A DNA stretch of 23,121 nt, from IMG/VR virus record IMGVR_UViG_3300022198_005865, positions 1-23,121 of that record; one strand, given 5' to 3'. Made by a program: the position numbers and the translations under genes. This document shows, in pieces, positions 3,173-10,771 of the stretch. This DNA is from a virus. Positions within the stretch are counted from its first letter, which is position 1, and every line of letters begins with the position of its first letter. Below the pieces are notes generated by a model that was not told the origin of the DNA, did no database searches, and saw nothing but the letters and a program-made list of their open reading frames with translations.

Positions 3173-4036
3173 ATGGCAGAGAATAGACATCAACCTGCTT
3201 TCAATTCGCCTCAGTCAATGAGCACCATAAAGACAAAGCTATTAAGACCAGCTTTGACTTCCCATTTTTCTTGTGAATTTTTACCCCCACCTTCTGTTTC
3301 TGGTGGGTGGACCACAGATAAGAGGATAGCATTTGGTGAAGGTAATAAGAATTTTGACAAGGGTTTAATTTATTTGTCTTGTTGTGATGCCACAATGCCT
3401 GGGTCCACATTCTATACTCATGATGTAATGGATTATACTGGAGTTACAGAAAAAATTCCATATAGAAGAGTATATGATGATCGTGCTGATTTTACTTTTT
3501 ATGTAGATGGAGAATATGAAGTTATTAAATATTTTGAATTTTGGATGCAATATATTGCAAATGAACAATATACAAAAGATTATAATAACCAAAAATTTAT
3601 TAAATCCGAGTACTCTTATAGGATGGCATACCCAGATGGAACTGGAAAAGCCAATGATGTATCGAGAGGATATAGAACGGATATCCATTTGACTAAATTT
3701 GAAAGAGATTATGGTGGATTATCTGGGGACAACTCTGGAAAATCTTTAACATACAAATACATTGATGCATATCCAATATCAATTATGTCAATGCCTGTTA
3801 GTTATGAATCTTCTCAACTATTAAAATGTACTATATCATTTGCATATACTAGGTACATATTATTACCAAGTGCAATTGATACTATAGATAAACCAAACCC
3901 AAAACCACAAGAGTCTAGTGCGAATGGTCCTGCCAGCGCCGCCCCAACTAGTGCCACTAATAGTGTTACTAATGGTCCTGCTAATGGTTCTAATAATAGG
4001 ACTATTAATAGAGTAAATTTATATTCCGGTAGCTAA
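3173..4036 (+). CDS. gp54: Baseplate tail tube initiator gp54
   Basis: A 287-aa protein of the gp54/tail-tube fold family. Diagnostic stretches are KIPYRRVYDDRADFTFYVDG (about 103-122), then HLTKFERDYGG, YKYIDAYPISIMSMPVSYES and LLKCTISFAYTRYI (about 190-230). T4 gp54 (about 320 aa) binds the baseplate on top of the hub and starts polymerisation of the gp19 tube. After residue 235 the tail is low-complexity, rich in S, N, A, T and P, and is probably disordered. It is the first rightward gene; the perfect late promoter at 3138 lies 27 nt upstream. There is no clear Shine-Dalgarno sequence. A tube-protein paralogue is the main alternative, but length and context next to gp26 favour gp54. Confidence 0.86.
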   Translation: MAENRHQPAFNSPQSMSTIKTKLLRPALTSHFSCEFLPPPSVSGGWTTDKRIAFGEGNKNFDKGLIYLSCCDATMPGSTFYTHDVMDYTGVTEKIPYRRVYDDRADFTFYVDGEYEVIKYFEFWMQYIANEQYTKDYNNQKFIKSEYSYRMAYPDGTGKANDVSRGYRTDIHLTKFERDYGGLSGDNSGKSLTYKYIDAYPISIMSMPVSYESSQLLKCTISFAYTRYILLPSAIDTIDKPNPKPQESSANGPASAAPTSATNSVTNGPANGSNNRTINRVNLYSGS

Positions 4037-4121: not shown

Positions 4122-4841
4122 ATGCCTTTACCAAAAATTGCTACACCAGTCTTCGAATTGGATTTACCGTCAACTGGACAAACAATCAAGTACAGACCAT
4201 TTTTAGTAAAAGAAGAAAAACTTTTATTGCTCGCATTAGAATCAGAAGATACAAAACAAATTACTACTGCAATTAAGACAGTAATTAAAAATTGTATAGA
4301 AACTAGAGGAATAAAGGTAGAAGCTCTTCCTACATTTGATATTGAATATTTGTTTTTAAATATTCGTTCGAAATCAGTTGGGGAAGAAGTGGAATTATCT
4401 ATTATATGTCCAGATGATGGAGAGACTGCAGTTCCAGTTAAAATTGATATCGATGATATTCATATTCATAAAAATGAAAATCATACAAATAAAATTAAAG
4501 TAGATGATTCAATTATGATGGAAATGAGATACCCATCTTTGGATCAATTTATTAAAAATAATTTTGATTTTTCCGGTCAAAATGCAACCGAACAATCATT
4601 TGAAATGATTGCCGATTGTGTGGATAAAATTTATACTGAGGAAGAAGTTTGGACTTCATCTGATGTAACCAAAAAAGAAATAGTGGAATTTTTAGATCAA
4701 ATGAATTCATCTCAATTTAAACAGATTGAGACTTTCTTTGAGACTATGCCAAAATTATCCCATACAGTAAAAGTAAAAAATCCAAATACAAAAGTTGAAT
4801 CAGAAGTTGTTCTTGAAGGGTTATCTAGTTTTTTCGCATAG
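4122..4841 (+). CDS. gp26: Baseplate hub protein gp26
   Basis: A 239-aa member of the T4 gp26 / T4-type baseplate family (T4 gp26 is 208 aa). It begins MPLPKIATPVFELDLPSTGQ, then has IKYRPFLVKEEKLLLLALES, CIETRGIKVEALPTFDIEYL with FLNIRSKSVGEE, and a C-terminal helical part (SLDQFIKNNF, then FLDQMNSSQFKQIETFFETM). In T4, gp26 is part of the central hub. It starts a unit with the 55-aa gene and the two giant tape-measure-like genes. The last sense codons, AGT TTT TTC GCA before TAG, contain a T TTT TTC slippery heptamer (separate entry), so a fraction of ribosomes may extend the protein to 299 aa by reading into the next gene. Confidence 0.88.
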   Translation: MPLPKIATPVFELDLPSTGQTIKYRPFLVKEEKLLLLALESEDTKQITTAIKTVIKNCIETRGIKVEALPTFDIEYLFLNIRSKSVGEEVELSIICPDDGETAVPVKIDIDDIHIHKNENHTNKIKVDDSIMMEMRYPSLDQFIKNNFDFSGQNATEQSFEMIADCVDKIYTEEEVWTSSDVTKKEIVEFLDQMNSSQFKQIETFFETMPKLSHTVKVKNPNTKVESEVVLEGLSSFFA

Positions 4842-4860
4842 GTCTTTGCCATATGGACCT
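4829..4860 (+). promoter_or_regulatory. Putative programmed -1 ribosomal frameshift site (heptamer plus hairpin)
   Basis: Bases 4829-4835 are T TTT TTC in the gp26 frame, a canonical X XXY YYZ heptamer, two codons before the gp26 stop at 4839-4841. After a 4-nt spacer, AGGTCT (4840-4845) can pair with GGACCT (4855-4860): five Watson-Crick pairs plus one G-U, with a 9-nt loop. After a -1 slip the frame reads six codons (RIGLCH) and joins the ATG of the 55-aa gene at 4853 without a stop. The predicted fusion is 299 aa. Slipping itself is inferred; the stem is short. Confidence 0.6.
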
Positions 4861-5020
4861 TGAGAATTACTTTAAGTTAAATTTTGCTCTCATGCAATAT
4901 CATAAATATTCATTAACTGAGATTGAAAATTTGATGCCATGGGAGAGAGATATCTATGTGGCACTCTTAAATCAACATTTGGAAGAAGAAGAAGCAAAAT
5001 TAAAGAAGGCGTCGCTTTAA
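4853..5020 (+). CDS. gp51: Small hub/tail assembly protein in the gene 51 position
   Basis: A 55-aa protein (starts MDLENYFKLNFALMQYHKYS, ends KLKKASL) with a helix-rich, acidic C-terminus and a central LMPWERDIYVALLNQ segment that resembles the C-terminal part of tail assembly chaperones and of small gp51-like proteins in marine T4-like phages. In T4, gene 51 follows gene 26 and acts as a hub assembly factor, but T4 gp51 is much longer, so the symbol rests on position and general likeness. It lies in the -1 frame relative to gp26 and can be reached by the frameshift described at 4829, or by its own ATG with AGG 11 nt upstream. It ends 5 nt before the next gene. Confidence 0.8.
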   Translation: MDLENYFKLNFALMQYHKYSLTEIENLMPWERDIYVALLNQHLEEEEAKLKKASL

Positions 5021-5025
5021 GATAA

Positions 5026-7512
5026 ATGGCAAAAAAATGGTCTATTGCTAGCATTAAATTTCCTAGAAATAGGCCAAAAAATCAGGCTATAATTTTTGCT
5101 AGAAACTTAGGTATCAATGAAGCAGCTGACCCTGAACTATATTATTATGTCATAAAATGGTATGTAGAAACGAATACAGGAGACGAGTTTCCAATATCAG
5201 AAAATGAATATGACGAATTTGAAGAGGATTCTTTAGAGGGAGATTTTGGAAAAATTCATGATAAAGTATTAAAAGAAATAGAAGCATATCAAAAAGAACA
5301 GAAGAAAAATAAAAAACCAACCGCATCAAAAAGACCTCCAAAAGCACCAACTAAAAAATCACCTACACGACAAAGACAAAGAAAATCAACTGCTAATAAA
5401 AATCAAAACCCAATTTCGGAAGTATCTTCGTCCACAAATGTAGATACTCAGAACAAAGAAACCTGTTGCGAAGATATAAAAGATAAAATAGAAGATCTTT
5501 TAGGTGAAATAAAAAGAGGAGCAATCCAATTACAGAAAAAAGAACCTGGTCCAAGGACAAGACCAACTTCAAGGTCAGCAAGTACCTTTGTGAGTCCTTC
5601 TAATTTTAGGACTAGGAATGTAAGAATCGCTAGAACAACACTAGAAAGATCTCGTGCAGTAATCGATAATGGTGGGGGCGGAGGAAATAATGGAAGAGTT
5701 GGTGGCGGTGGTGGCGGTGGTGGATCAAACGATCCAATGGTGCAAATATTATTGAAAATACAAAAATCAGTAGATAATATATTAGCTGTTCTTTCAGCGC
5801 AGAGAGCAACGACCATAAAAACACAAAGAGTTGAGAGAATAACACAAGAGCAAAATAAAAGAAAAGAAGCAGAAAATCAATTAGAGTCTTCTGCGAAAAA
5901 AACATATGATTCATTTCAAAAAGTGATGTCTCCTGTAAAAGGAATATTGGATCGCATTTTTGATTTTATATTTTATACTTTACTCGGAAAAGCTTTCACT
6001 GAATTAGTTAAATGGATATCTGACCCAAAAAATAAGAAAAAAATAGAATCTTTAAAGAGATTTTTTAAAGATTGGTGGCCAGCGATTCTTGGCACATTCA
6101 TATTATTTGGAACAAGATTTGGTAAATTCATACGATCTACAGTAGGATTAGCAATAAATCTTACAAAATATATTCGTGCAATTGGTATACCAGGAATATT
6201 GAAGTTATTAAAGACCTTTGGAGTTCGTTCTTTATATGCTGGAGCAGCAGTTGCTGCAGCATACGGTGGATATCAATTATTAAAACCAAAAAATGAATCA
6301 GAAAAAATAAAACAACCAAAACCACAACAACAAAATAGTCCAGAAGAAAAAAAGATAAAACCACAACCGCTGCCGCCTTCTTATGCGTTCAATAGAGGTG
6401 GTATAATTCCTCAACGAAATTCTACTCCAATAGAAAAGATTGCTTTGGATGGAAGTCAACAAATCACTAGTAATTCTGGATTGGATATCACTGGTGCTGG
6501 ACCTGATACTCAATTAGTTGCAGCCAGACCAGGTGAAATTGTTGTAACCCCAGAAGATGCAAAGGACATTCAAAATAAAACTGGATTGAATTTATATCAA
6601 TTTGTGGCAGGAAGAAAGCCAAAATATGCCAACAACATTCAGATGGCAAAAGATGGAGGTATTGTTGGTGGTGGTAAATTAAGCGCAGCCGATTATAATT
6701 CTCTACTCGCCATTTCAGCACTAGAAGATGATACAGCACAAGGCAGAGCAGATGTTGCACAATCAATTTATAATCGATTACAAGCAGCAAATAATTATGG
6801 TGCAAATTTTTACCAGAAAAAAGATACAATAAAAGATATTATCATTGCTAAAGATCAATATCAACCAGTATTTGGTAATATTTCAGACTGGAAAAACATT
6901 GTAGACAGAAAAACTGCTGCACTTGCGGTGATGAATTCTACAAAAGGAAAAAAATATAATTGGAATATGCAGGAAGCTTTAAGGCAAATGTCTGACACAG
7001 AAAAAGCCCTGAAAAATATAAAGCTACAACAACAAGCGCAAAACTTTATTGGCACTAGAACTGCATTTCGCGGAAAAAGTGAACAGCCCTATATGAGACC
7101 AGACAAAGGAGATATACTAAGAAATAAAGATTCTAATTTCTTTATCCATGAAGGAAACTATGGAAATAAACCTGCGCCAATTCCAGCTCAATTCCAGGCA
7201 CCACCTCCACCAAAACCAAAACCAAAACCCCAAGGATTCTTAGAGCCTTTGTGGAATAATATTCTAAGATTTACTGGACTTAAAACCTCTGATGCATCAC
7301 TGGCTCCAGTTACTCCAAATGTAAGGCAACCTGGAAAACGAGTTCAAGGTAAAGGTAATTTTACCATCACAGAATTGCCACCAGTAATGGTTTCTTCCAA
7401 TCAAAATATAGCTCCAGGAGCTAAGAATGGAAGCCAAGTCCCTGCACTTTCTCCGATTCCCCCAAATAGAGAAGAAAGAGAAATTACACTTTCTGCATAT
7501 GGGTTGACATAA
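5026..7512 (+). CDS. Tape-measure-like tail protein with SleB-like cell wall hydrolase domain
   Basis: An 828-aa protein. Residues 1-90 are mixed and acidic; 90-215 are basic and low-complexity (K, R, P, S, T); about 214-236 is a Gly run. Residues about 237-300 are coiled-coil (MVQILLKIQKSVDNILAVL). A hydrophobic segment at about 313-331 (FIFYTLLGKAFTELVKW) and another at about 350-370 (WWPAILGTFILFG) could be membrane-active. Residues about 554-712 resemble SleB-type cell wall hydrolases: ALEDDTAQGRADVAQSIYNR, with E567 as candidate catalytic Glu, and DQYQPVF. The C-terminus is Pro-rich. Size, position after gp26/51 and coiled-coil suggest a tape-measure or hub-associated tail protein that helps pierce the wall. 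It is paralogous to the next protein. The domain call is by motif, not by search. Confidence 0.75.
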   Translation: MAKKWSIASIKFPRNRPKNQAIIFARNLGINEAADPELYYYVIKWYVETNTGDEFPISENEYDEFEEDSLEGDFGKIHDKVLKEIEAYQKEQKKNKKPTASKRPPKAPTKKSPTRQRQRKSTANKNQNPISEVSSSTNVDTQNKETCCEDIKDKIEDLLGEIKRGAIQLQKKEPGPRTRPTSRSASTFVSPSNFRTRNVRIARTTLERSRAVIDNGGGGGNNGRVGGGGGGGGSNDPMVQILLKIQKSVDNILAVLSAQRATTIKTQRVERITQEQNKRKEAENQLESSAKKTYDSFQKVMSPVKGILDRIFDFIFYTLLGKAFTELVKWISDPKNKKKIESLKRFFKDWWPAILGTFILFGTRFGKFIRSTVGLAINLTKYIRAIGIPGILKLLKTFGVRSLYAGAAVAAAYGGYQLLKPKNESEKIKQPKPQQQNSPEEKKIKPQPLPPSYAFNRGGIIPQRNSTPIEKIALDGSQQITSNSGLDITGAGPDTQLVAARPGEIVVTPEDAKDIQNKTGLNLYQFVAGRKPKYANNIQMAKDGGIVGGGKLSAADYNSLLAISALEDDTAQGRADVAQSIYNRLQAANNYGANFYQKKDTIKDIIIAKDQYQPVFGNISDWKNIVDRKTAALAVMNSTKGKKYNWNMQEALRQMSDTEKALKNIKLQQQAQNFIGTRTAFRGKSEQPYMRPDKGDILRNKDSNFFIHEGNYGNKPAPIPAQFQAPPPPKPKPKPQGFLEPLWNNILRFTGLKTSDASLAPVTPNVRQPGKRVQGKGNFTITELPPVMVSSNQNIAPGAKNGSQVPALSPIPPNREEREITLSAYGLT

Positions 7513-7513
7513 A

Positions 7514-10500
7514 ATGGCGCAAAATAATGTAACTCCAACTACACCTATCATACCAGGGTCAAGAAGAGGACCTGGTGGAGGTGGAAATGCACCTTTGAGT
7601 ATTTTGACATCAATTCACCAAAGTTTAAAGAAAATTGAAACTTTGGTTAAATTTAATTCTTCCCTTTTGTCCAACCAAAAAGAGCAACAAAGAAGACGAG
7701 CAATAACGCAGACAAGACAACAACAGGAAAAGCAATCCGAAACACCAAAACTCGTAAATCCATTAAAATATCTACAGGGAGCATTACCTAAAACTGGATT
7801 CCTAGATGCAATTCGTAATTTTATTCTCTATACTTTTATGGGATTTGCATTCACTAAACTAGTGAAGTTTCTCCCAAAAATATTAAGCACATTAAAGTTT
7901 ATAGATCCTTTTATAAAATTTACAGAAAATTTTGTTGGATCTGTATTTAAAAATTTTGTAGATGCCATTGATCTTGGTTATGAACAATATGATAAAGTAA
8001 GATCATTAGCAAAACAGGTCGGTGGAGAAAAATTTGAAAAGCAATTTGATGACCTTTCATCTGCTCTAAACAAATTTTTAAATACCGCAATTATTGTTGG
8101 ATTGGCAATTGCTGGTTCTGGTGCAGTTGGAGGTGGTGGAGGTAAAAAGTTACCCACAAGAATCTCTCCTAGATCTGGTGTAGGTGGACCTGGTGGATCA
8201 ACAAGATTAAGTCAATATTTTAGTCAGACTCGCGCACAAGAGGCAGTTACAAAAAAATATGGATTTGATGCAGCACGACTATATCAAGACAAAATTAATA
8301 AAGGATTAACTCCAGCTAAAGCATTAGAAGCAGTCAGAGAAAGATTTTCACCAAGAGCTATTCCTGCTGCTGGATTGGCTGGAAAAGGAAGAACTTCAGG
8401 TAGAATTGGAGCAAGAGGATTAGGAAAGACACAGCAGCGTACATCATTAAAATTATTTGGAAAAGCTGGCACAAAAATATTAGGCAAAATTCCAATTATA
8501 GGTCCAATAGCGGACTTTTTAATTAGTACATTGATATTTAAGGAAAGACCAGATAGAGCTGCTGCTGGTGCTGTTGGTGGTGCCGTTGGAGCAGCACTTG
8601 GAAGTTTTCCTGCTTTGATTCCCTTTGGTGGTCCAATTTGGGGTGGAATTCTTGGAGATATTGTTGGTAGATCATTATTTGATGCCGCAACATCCATGCA
8701 AGGTCAAGGTGAAAAAATACAAAAAAGAGCATCAGGAGGTACAATTACTAGGGGCAATAGATCACCAAATAGAACAATCAAAAGAACTATTTCGAGAAGA
8801 AAATCTACTTTACAAAAACCAAAAGGCCAACCACCCCAGCCTGGAAAAAATATTGGTGGGCTGAAGCAAATTAAAAAAATATTTCCATCACCAAAAAAAT
8901 CAGGAAAGAAAAATCCACTAAGAGCATTAAAAACTATATCAGAAATTATGAATAAAAACCGTGATCCACTTTTTGGTGGAATCATGATGGCGACTGCAAA
9001 TTTACCTTTGGGTCAAAAGCCAGATCCCCTATTGAATCAAGAAATTAAAAATAATTTTGCTGCATTGATTGACAATGCAATCGCAGCACAATCAGCAAAA
9101 GATGTTAATCAAATTGGTAGATCAATTTTTACAGCAGCACAAGGTGGTGTAGTTCCAGTTCAAAGAACAATTAATAAAAATGGACCAACAATTGGACAGC
9201 AATTAGGTGATGCAATATCTCGTTCATTTAAAAATGCTCTTGACAATAGAACTAATCAGATATTTCAAAGTCTTAGAAAAGAGATGGGACTTAAAGGCGA
9301 TGGACCTGGAGTAAGTACACCACCTGGTGGTGGTCCTGGAAATATAATTGTAAGTAGTAATAGCCCAAATTTTTGGTTACTTGCAACTGGAGCACTATTT
9401 GAAAATTCTGATCCTCAAGGTGCAGCTGATGTGGCACAAGTAATTTATAATAGAGTATCTGCTCCTGGTGATCCTTGGAAGACAAATGGGAGTATGAGAG
9501 CTGCTATATTATCGCCAGCACAATTTACGCCAGTAAGTAGATATGGTGGTGTCTCAGCTTGGTCAAAAATTATAACCAAGGAAGACGCTATTAGATTCGC
9601 TACATCCAATGGAAAAACACAAGCTGGATTAGAATCAGTGGCAGCTGCTTTATTAGATACAAATAGACAAAGATCAGCTAGAACTTTTGTTGGACCAAGA
9701 GATGCATTCAGAGCTACGACCCATGAGAATAGATTATATAATCAATTAGATGATAGTACTGAAGTTACTAGACATGGGCATATTTTTGGATTTGAACCTG
9801 GTGGGGCACAGATTGCTGCATTTAAGGCAGGTAAACTATCTCCAGCTCAAGTTTCATCTCAAACTAGAGGAACTGTAACTCAAACTGGTAGGGGTGGACT
9901 TCCTCTGACTGGAGAAAATGGAAGACTAAAACCATCACAACTTACTAGAGTAGGTACACTTGCTGATCCTCCAGATTATAACGATTGGTATGGTAATGGG
10001 GCATACCTAAGACACGATGCTGCCAGACAATTTCTTAAAGCAAAATCAGATGCAAGTAAACAAGGAATTACATTGATACTTACCTCTGCATACAGAAGTT
10101 TAGAGCATCAAAGAGCATTACAAGGAATATATTCAGTTGTAGGTGCACCAGGAACTTCTCAGCATGGTGAAGGTAGAGCACTTGATATTAGACCTTCAAC
10201 AAAAGGTTGGAACTGGTTTGTTACTAATGGACCAAATTATGGTTGGTATTATGCTGCAATTCCAGGTGATGATGTTCACTTCGAATTTAGAGGAGTTGTA
10301 ACGCAAACTCCACCACAACCACCTGCCCAAAATCCACCACCACAACCACCTGCCCAAAATCCACCACAACCAAACCAACCAATAAAAAATCAAGGTGTCA
10401 TATTTAAAAATGGAAAGTTTTATAAACTTGGTCTATTTGGATTTGATCAAGAAATAGATGTGACCGATAGAAATAATACGCAACTTAGACAAATTCCAAC

Positions 10501-10771
10501 CTTTGGATTGGGTAGAGGAAAAGAAGGAGAAATAAAACGAGCAGCAAATGGTGTTTACTATAAATTTACAGGTGGAAAGTGGATAGGTCTTCATGCAGGT
10601 GGAAATGCTTCTATTCAAAATAATATTCCATCTTCTTTAGTTGCACAAGCACAATTCACTCCTTTACCAATAAAAAATACAATGGACATGATTCAACAAT
10701 ATGATCAGTCATCCGAAGATCAGATTGTGAATACGCATCTTTTGGTAGTAAATAAAATTCAAACTGCGTAA
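7514..10771 (+). CDS. Giant tape-measure-like tail protein with SleB-like and M15 peptidase domains
   Basis: A 1085-aa protein paralogous to the upstream one. It shares a coiled-coil N-terminus (PLSILTSIHQSLKKIETLV) and the hydrophobic motif at about 102-121 (NFILYTFMGFAFTKLVKFL). Residues about 335-395 are rich in Ala, Gly and hydrophobics (GAVGGAVGAALGSFPALIPF). Residues about 618-760 are SleB-like (FENSDPQGAADVAQVIYNRV with candidate E630, then SPAQFTPVS). Residues about 830-927 look like an M15 zinc peptidase: SQHGEGRALD gives H884 and D891, and DDVHFEF gives D919 and H922, the spacing seen in T5-type L-Ala-D-Glu endopeptidases. A Pro/Gln repeat linker (932-956) and a compact C-terminal domain follow. 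It starts 1 nt after the previous stop. Likely role: tape measure or hub protein that cuts peptidoglycan glycan and peptide during DNA injection. Confidence 0.78.
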   Translation: MAQNNVTPTTPIIPGSRRGPGGGGNAPLSILTSIHQSLKKIETLVKFNSSLLSNQKEQQRRRAITQTRQQQEKQSETPKLVNPLKYLQGALPKTGFLDAIRNFILYTFMGFAFTKLVKFLPKILSTLKFIDPFIKFTENFVGSVFKNFVDAIDLGYEQYDKVRSLAKQVGGEKFEKQFDDLSSALNKFLNTAIIVGLAIAGSGAVGGGGGKKLPTRISPRSGVGGPGGSTRLSQYFSQTRAQEAVTKKYGFDAARLYQDKINKGLTPAKALEAVRERFSPRAIPAAGLAGKGRTSGRIGARGLGKTQQRTSLKLFGKAGTKILGKIPIIGPIADFLISTLIFKERPDRAAAGAVGGAVGAALGSFPALIPFGGPIWGGILGDIVGRSLFDAATSMQGQGEKIQKRASGGTITRGNRSPNRTIKRTISRRKSTLQKPKGQPPQPGKNIGGLKQIKKIFPSPKKSGKKNPLRALKTISEIMNKNRDPLFGGIMMATANLPLGQKPDPLLNQEIKNNFAALIDNAIAAQSAKDVNQIGRSIFTAAQGGVVPVQRTINKNGPTIGQQLGDAISRSFKNALDNRTNQIFQSLRKEMGLKGDGPGVSTPPGGGPGNIIVSSNSPNFWLLATGALFENSDPQGAADVAQVIYNRVSAPGDPWKTNGSMRAAILSPAQFTPVSRYGGVSAWSKIITKEDAIRFATSNGKTQAGLESVAAALLDTNRQRSARTFVGPRDAFRATTHENRLYNQLDDSTEVTRHGHIFGFEPGGAQIAAFKAGKLSPAQVSSQTRGTVTQTGRGGLPLTGENGRLKPSQLTRVGTLADPPDYNDWYGNGAYLRHDAARQFLKAKSDASKQGITLILTSAYRSLEHQRALQGIYSVVGAPGTSQHGEGRALDIRPSTKGWNWFVTNGPNYGWYYAAIPGDDVHFEFRGVVTQTPPQPPAQNPPPQPPAQNPPQPNQPIKNQGVIFKNGKFYKLGLFGFDQEIDVTDRNNTQLRQIPTFGLGRGKEGEIKRAANGVYYKFTGGKWIGLHAGGNASIQNNIPSSLVAQAQFTPLPIKNTMDMIQQYDQSSEDQIVNTHLLVVNKIQTA
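10310..10371 (+). repeat. Pro/Gln-coding direct repeat
   Basis: A 24-bp unit (starting CCACCACAACCACCTGCC) occurs at 10310-10333 and again identically at 10337-10360, followed by a partial third copy. It encodes the Pro-rich linker PPQPPAQN just after the M15-like domain, and probably arose by slippage. Confidence 0.85.

Follow-up and report, generated by a model that had tools for sequence, protein, structure and literature searches.

The locus considered here raises the question of whether a gp26 homologue and the short open reading frame (ORF) behind it are two genes or one. It lies in a 23,121-nucleotide stretch of DNA from a marine T4-like phage (hereafter the window), and a 55-aa ORF of the kind that is commonly annotated as a separate gp51 begins shortly after the gp26 stop codon. 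We consider it very probable, from comparison with related sequences, that gp26 and the 55-aa ORF form a single gene, from which a -1 slip at the heptamer T TTT TTC yields a second product.

Organisation of the gp26 locus

The features on which this reading is based are as follows.

4122-4841, + strand: gp26, short chaperone form (TAC-N), 239 aa, the normal translation product (PF12322, phrog_150 and T4 gp26 homology)
4829-4835, + strand: slippery heptamer T TTT TTC (from the sequence, and found in the same place in Kyanoviridae-type sequences)
4839-4841, + strand: zero-frame stop codon TAG of gp26
4835-5017, + strand: -1 extension of 61 codons starting with CGC, TAC-NC once joined to gp26 (open frame, homologous in relatives)
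4853-5020, + strand: 55-aa ORF, commonly annotated as separate gp51 (phrog_634, E 4.3e-26)

The gp26 product matches PF12322 (T4_baseplate, E 7.6e-79) and phrog_150 (baseplate hub). Its gene ends ...AGT TTT TTC GCA TAG, so that a single sense codon, GCA, stands between heptamer and stop. In the -1 frame the bridge reads CGC ATA GGT CTT TGC CAT and is followed by the ATG at 4853, the frame being stop-free as far as the TAA at 5018-5020; the predicted product of gp26 plus the -1 extension is 299 aa long. An earlier note on this DNA had placed T TTT TTC in the gp26 frame just before its stop, and had claimed that the -1 frame runs through six codons into the ATG of the 55-aa ORF. Both claims hold at the positions given above, and the -1 translation agrees with the junction peptide ...LSSFFRIGLCH... 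which that note had predicted.

Conservation of the heptamer and of the -1 frame

A single XXXYYYZ heptamer is little proof in itself, because the pattern is common: in the window 92 of the 7189 in-frame codon pairs show it, just two of them with six T. The weight of the argument therefore rests on conservation. The same frequency would favour the view that the heptamer is a chance occurrence in an AT-rich genome, or an assembly error; against this, independent contigs, and complete genomes of isolates as well, show the identical arrangement. The relatives refute this view, to which we give practically no credence.

TTTTTTC is invariant, 10 nt ahead of the gp26 stop, in the window and in 81/81 close relatives (IMG/VR contigs and phage S-SM2, at 68-81% amino-acid identity). 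Among 127 distinct Kyanoviridae-type sequences it is found at exactly the same place in 125, the T run lying 3 nt closer to the stop in the other two, and the seventh base of the heptamer is C in 126. The codon ahead of the Phe-Phe pair ends in T in all close relatives, though the residue that it encodes varies (Ser, Gly, Asn or Asp). The slip-site Phe-Phe is always written TTT TTC; elsewhere in the same genes Phe-Phe is encoded as TTC TTT (62 cases) or TTT TTT (18 cases), and never as TTT TTC. As the relatives share descent, naive probabilities calculated from such counts overstate the case, and the 81 distinct close sequences form 65 clusters at 85% nucleotide identity. Judged by these alignments, the heptamer arrangement is far beyond chance once relatives are compared.

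The reading frame downstream of gp26 is -1 at all 143 loci compared. It stays open for at least 140 nt beyond the gp26 stop at 140 of them, and the remaining three reach contig ends. A +1 frameshift was also considered and is ruled out, the +1 frame meeting a stop at a median distance of 22 nt. Ahead of the heptamer, sequence variability tracks the zero frame (entropy 0.71/0.37/1.39 at codon positions 1-3), and downstream of it, including the bridge before the ATG, variability tracks the -1 frame (1.08/0.39/1.22), the third -1 position being the most variable and the second the most conserved. The aligned gp26/51 junctions, to which the earlier note had pointed as a check on its proposal, thus keep the -1 relation with a stop-free bridge, and nearly all of the Kyanoviridae-type sequences keep the heptamer as well.

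These data also bear on the possibility of two separate genes, with a 55-aa protein made from the ATG at 4853 by re-initiation after the TAG at 4839-4841. An ATG is present here in many relatives, and database records do annotate a separate gp51; however, re-initiation requires no fixed frame, yet the -1 relation is found everywhere, and the locked TTT TTC codons would be left unexplained. No ATG, GTG or TTG occurs within the first nine -1 codons in 20/125 sequences, and a Shine-Dalgarno 4-mer is absent ahead of the ORF51 start position in 107/127 relatives, which makes it unlikely that the 55-aa ORF is translated separately. In phages syn9 and Melnitz, moreover, the annotated gp51 starts fall within the conserved domain. 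From this sequence evidence the 55-aa ORF is probably not an independent gene, and we regard re-initiation as a very unlikely account of the locus.

Possible stimulators of slippage

Around the putative slip site three further features were considered.

4815-4820, + strand: GAAGGG, Shine-Dalgarno-like, about 10 nt 5′ of the slip site and possibly stimulatory (codon bias in relatives)
4840-4860, + strand: hairpin described in the earlier note, 4840-4845 with 4855-4860 (particular to this sequence)
4846-4859, + strand: position at which close relatives conserve a hairpin, 4846-4850 with 4855-4859 (covariation)

Glu-Gly codons yield GAGG or AAGGG/AAGGA about 10 nt 5′ of the heptamer in 126/127 sequences. 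The Glu codon at this point is GAG in 90/127, against a background of 31% (Fisher p 5e-19), and the Gly codon is GGG in 28% against 6% elsewhere. A Shine-Dalgarno-like motif is thus preserved through codon choice and, by analogy with dnaX, it may have a stimulatory role. The E. coli dnaX signal consists of a Shine-Dalgarno-like motif about 10 nt upstream, the heptamer A AAA AAG and a downstream hairpin. The present site would resemble it in all three elements, while differing in that dnaX is an unrelated gene with another heptamer and that the hairpin here is weak and lineage-specific.

The conserved motif also speaks to transcriptional slippage, in which RNA polymerase would slip on the T run and alter the base count, giving messages that are then read in frame. 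The T run is certainly present, and is of at least 7 T in some distant relatives, but six T is short for efficient transcriptional slippage; the C at the seventh base in 126/127 sequences interrupts the run and suits tandem tRNA slippage, and a conserved Shine-Dalgarno-like motif would act on ribosomes. We rate slippage by the polymerase as slightly less probable even than re-initiation, and continue with a ribosomal -1 slip as the preferred reading.

Downstream of the heptamer, the pairing of 4840-4845 with 4855-4860 that the earlier note had reported can indeed form, but its register is not conserved among relatives. Its folding energy is unremarkable against shuffled sequence (z -0.45 and -1.47). 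As a conserved stimulator this hairpin was rejected: its covariation equals that of shuffles, and over half of the relatives cannot form the three pairs in its middle. Close relatives have instead a conserved hairpin of 5 pairs (alignment columns 18-22/27-31) with double changes at 5/5 pairs, the cells with double changes numbering 45 against 11.4 +/- 5.9 in shuffled alignments. One of these pairs, 19-30, couples a first codon position (Val/Ile) with a synonymous third position (Asp GAC/GAT), and in these alignments protein conservation is no explanation for its covariation. The window retains 2/5 pairs of this hairpin, and a search for a consensus downstream structure in the syn9-like group found none; a downstream stimulator structure common to all these phages was thus not found.

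Relation to T4 gp26 and gp51

A profile of predicted fusion proteins aligns end-to-end with the T4 gp51 family (columns 12-285 to 6-250, hhalign probability 98.9%). Only the gp26 part is matched by T4 gp26, which stops at the slip-site Phe-Phe (hhalign 99.5%). The two T4 proteins are themselves mutually homologous (hhalign 98.2%), and phrog_150 spans both parts of the fusion, scoring 317.7 bits with it against 283.1 with gp26 alone. The proteins of this locus are therefore homologous to those of the T4-like gp26/gp51 family, the predicted fusion corresponding to T4 gp51 and gp26 to T4 gp26.

Genes 26 and 51 are on opposite strands in T4, 44RR and Pet-CM3-4, and the 3′ end of T4 gp26 (GAG TTC TTT GAG TTA CTA TAA) has no slippery heptamer; T4 therefore has two genes for this pair of products. 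In T4 (Tevenvirinae) the two forms thus come from separate single-frame genes, whereas here they would come from one gene and a -1 slip.

Neighbouring genes and predicted structure

The gp26 locus stands between the following genes.

3173-4036, + strand: tail tube protein, upstream neighbour (PF23849 Phage_TTP_2, E 5.9e-11; phrog_45 tail tube, E 1.3e-31)
5026-7512, + strand: candidate tape measure protein of 828 aa, downstream neighbour (position; phiM12 and Cr30 annotations)

In phage Cr30 the gene after gp26/gp51, with one small gene between, is annotated as tape measure, and the corresponding downstream gene of phiM12 as having ‘similarity to phage tape measure proteins’. The two large genes at 5026-7512 and 7514-10771 are partly paralogous, with 30% identity over 131 aa (E 7e-12) and a further stretch that matches. 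Each has a long hydrophobic segment as well as a cell-wall-hydrolase-like stretch, and either one may be the tape measure gene.

The predicted structure of gp26 is of good quality, with a mean pLDDT of 85.5. Among 350,542 PDB chains its top match was the HK97 tail assembly chaperone 2ob9, at a non-significant E of 0.96 (probability 0.80; 62 columns, rmsd 2.6), so that the likeness of the modelled fold to 2ob9 is suggestive, not significant. Among predicted viral structures, most matches to the gp26 model were T4-like gp26 proteins or baseplate hub proteins. A natural single-frame T4 gp51-like protein was folded as a stand-in for the long form, and the fold search with this model gave no chaperone match and nothing meaningful; likewise, gp26 and T4 gp51-like profiles searched against the sequences of solved structures gave nothing meaningful.

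Proposed mechanism and comparison with known systems

We propose that the majority of ribosomes would terminate at the TAG at 4839, giving the 239-aa short chaperone, and that a minority would slip by -1 at T TTT TTC, where the tRNAs on TTT and TTC would re-pair on TTT and TTT. Pairing of GAAGGG with 16S rRNA would probably aid the slip, and the slipped ribosomes would continue in the -1 frame to give the 299-aa long form. If the two forms act as lambda gpG and gpGT do, the shorter would coat the tape measure protein, and the longer would recruit tail tube subunits. We infer slippage itself and its rate, as well as these roles in tail assembly.

The lambda G/GT slip site is G GGA AAG. Like the present locus as we read it, lambda makes a short and a -1-extended form from one start, and has the order tail tube, chaperone, large tail gene; its slip site differs from T TTT TTC, and the likeness is one of arrangement. 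P2 E/E′ likewise belongs to a contractile-tail phage and has a poly-T heptamer, given in the earlier note as T TTT TTG; its last base is G where it is C here. In the chaperone loci of Vandenendeviridae and Andersonviridae (PMC12846349) the same comparative inference points to a conserved -1 frameshift, GTTTTT standing where the short chaperone gene ends; these are other phage families, and the motif is shorter.

Tail assembly chaperones made by -1 frameshifting have long been known, in lambda and others, and are described as widely conserved except in T4 (review PMC5009743). The suggestion that gp26 and gp51 are the T4-lineage counterpart of such a chaperone pair, fused by a -1 frameshift, is strongly supported by the conservation and by the end-to-end homology to T4 gp51 reported above. 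The accompanying remark, that no such description was known for T4-like phages, no longer holds: the T4-like tail assembly chaperone genes were identified by Vladimirov, Gautam and Davidson (2022, Virology 566:9-15, doi 10.1016/j.virol.2021.11.003). According to a summary of that work, some T4-like phages have a longer, fused gene beside a short one (PMC10885494), and it is also cited for poly-T slippery sequences in T4-like TAC-N genes (PMC12846349, 2025). The T4-like chaperone pair was thus already named in 2022 and is not new here; the window is a well-supported further case.

Distribution among T4-like phages

A gp26 with TTTTTTC or TTTTTTT and a -1 extension is found in phages P-SSM2, S-N03, syn9, Melnitz, DLP6, Mendera and phiM12, in Cr30, pf16, phiAS5, D491s, Bakedbeans and Atu_ph07, and in a second set comprising Aeh1, Cronobacter S13, Aeromonas 65, VmeM-32, phi-ST2 and P-TIM68. 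The -1 relation was present at every junction checked, including those of Aeromonas, Vibrio, Sinorhizobium, Caulobacter, Stenotrophomonas and Agrobacterium phages. In Kuja and PLL1 (Ackermannviridae) and in the Vibrio phage D504 the -1 relation is kept as well, but a short T run takes the place of the TTTTTTC/TTTTTTT heptamer ahead of the stop, so that their slip site may be weaker or of another kind. A scan of distant viral contigs with a Vibrio gp26 found no relatives. In the 490-kb Agrobacterium phage Atu_ph07, the gp26 ending in TTTTTTC and its -1 extension lie in very different gene surroundings.

The -1 frame would also account for two earlier puzzles of annotation. Cyanophage gp51 has been described as about 20% of the usual length and without the first ~200 residues, and Aeh1 as seemingly without gp51 (PMC3037559). 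The cyanophage protein would be short because gp26 supplies the missing residues through the -1 frame, and the gp51 of Aeh1 would appear to be missing because its gp51 domain, which we find in the -1 frame behind TTTTTTC, is unannotated. The gp51 starts annotated inside the conserved domain of syn9 and Melnitz, apparently for want of an earlier ATG, are probably mis-annotations. A joined gp26-gp51 annotation was absent from all annotated phage records compared, so that in many abundant marine phage genomes gp51 is annotated split or mis-started.

Considering the T4 superfamily as a whole, we somewhat favour the view that -1 frameshifting in gene 26 is widespread and probably ancestral, being shared by the Kyanoviridae, the Aeh1- and phi-ST2-type Straboviridae, phiM12, Cr30, Menderavirus and the 490-kb Agrobacterium phage, and that it was replaced in the Tevenvirinae by a second single-frame gene (51). 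On this same view the Kyanoviridae would carry a signal of the dnaX type, in which the internal Shine-Dalgarno is conserved, and the Ackermannviridae a shorter T-run variant.
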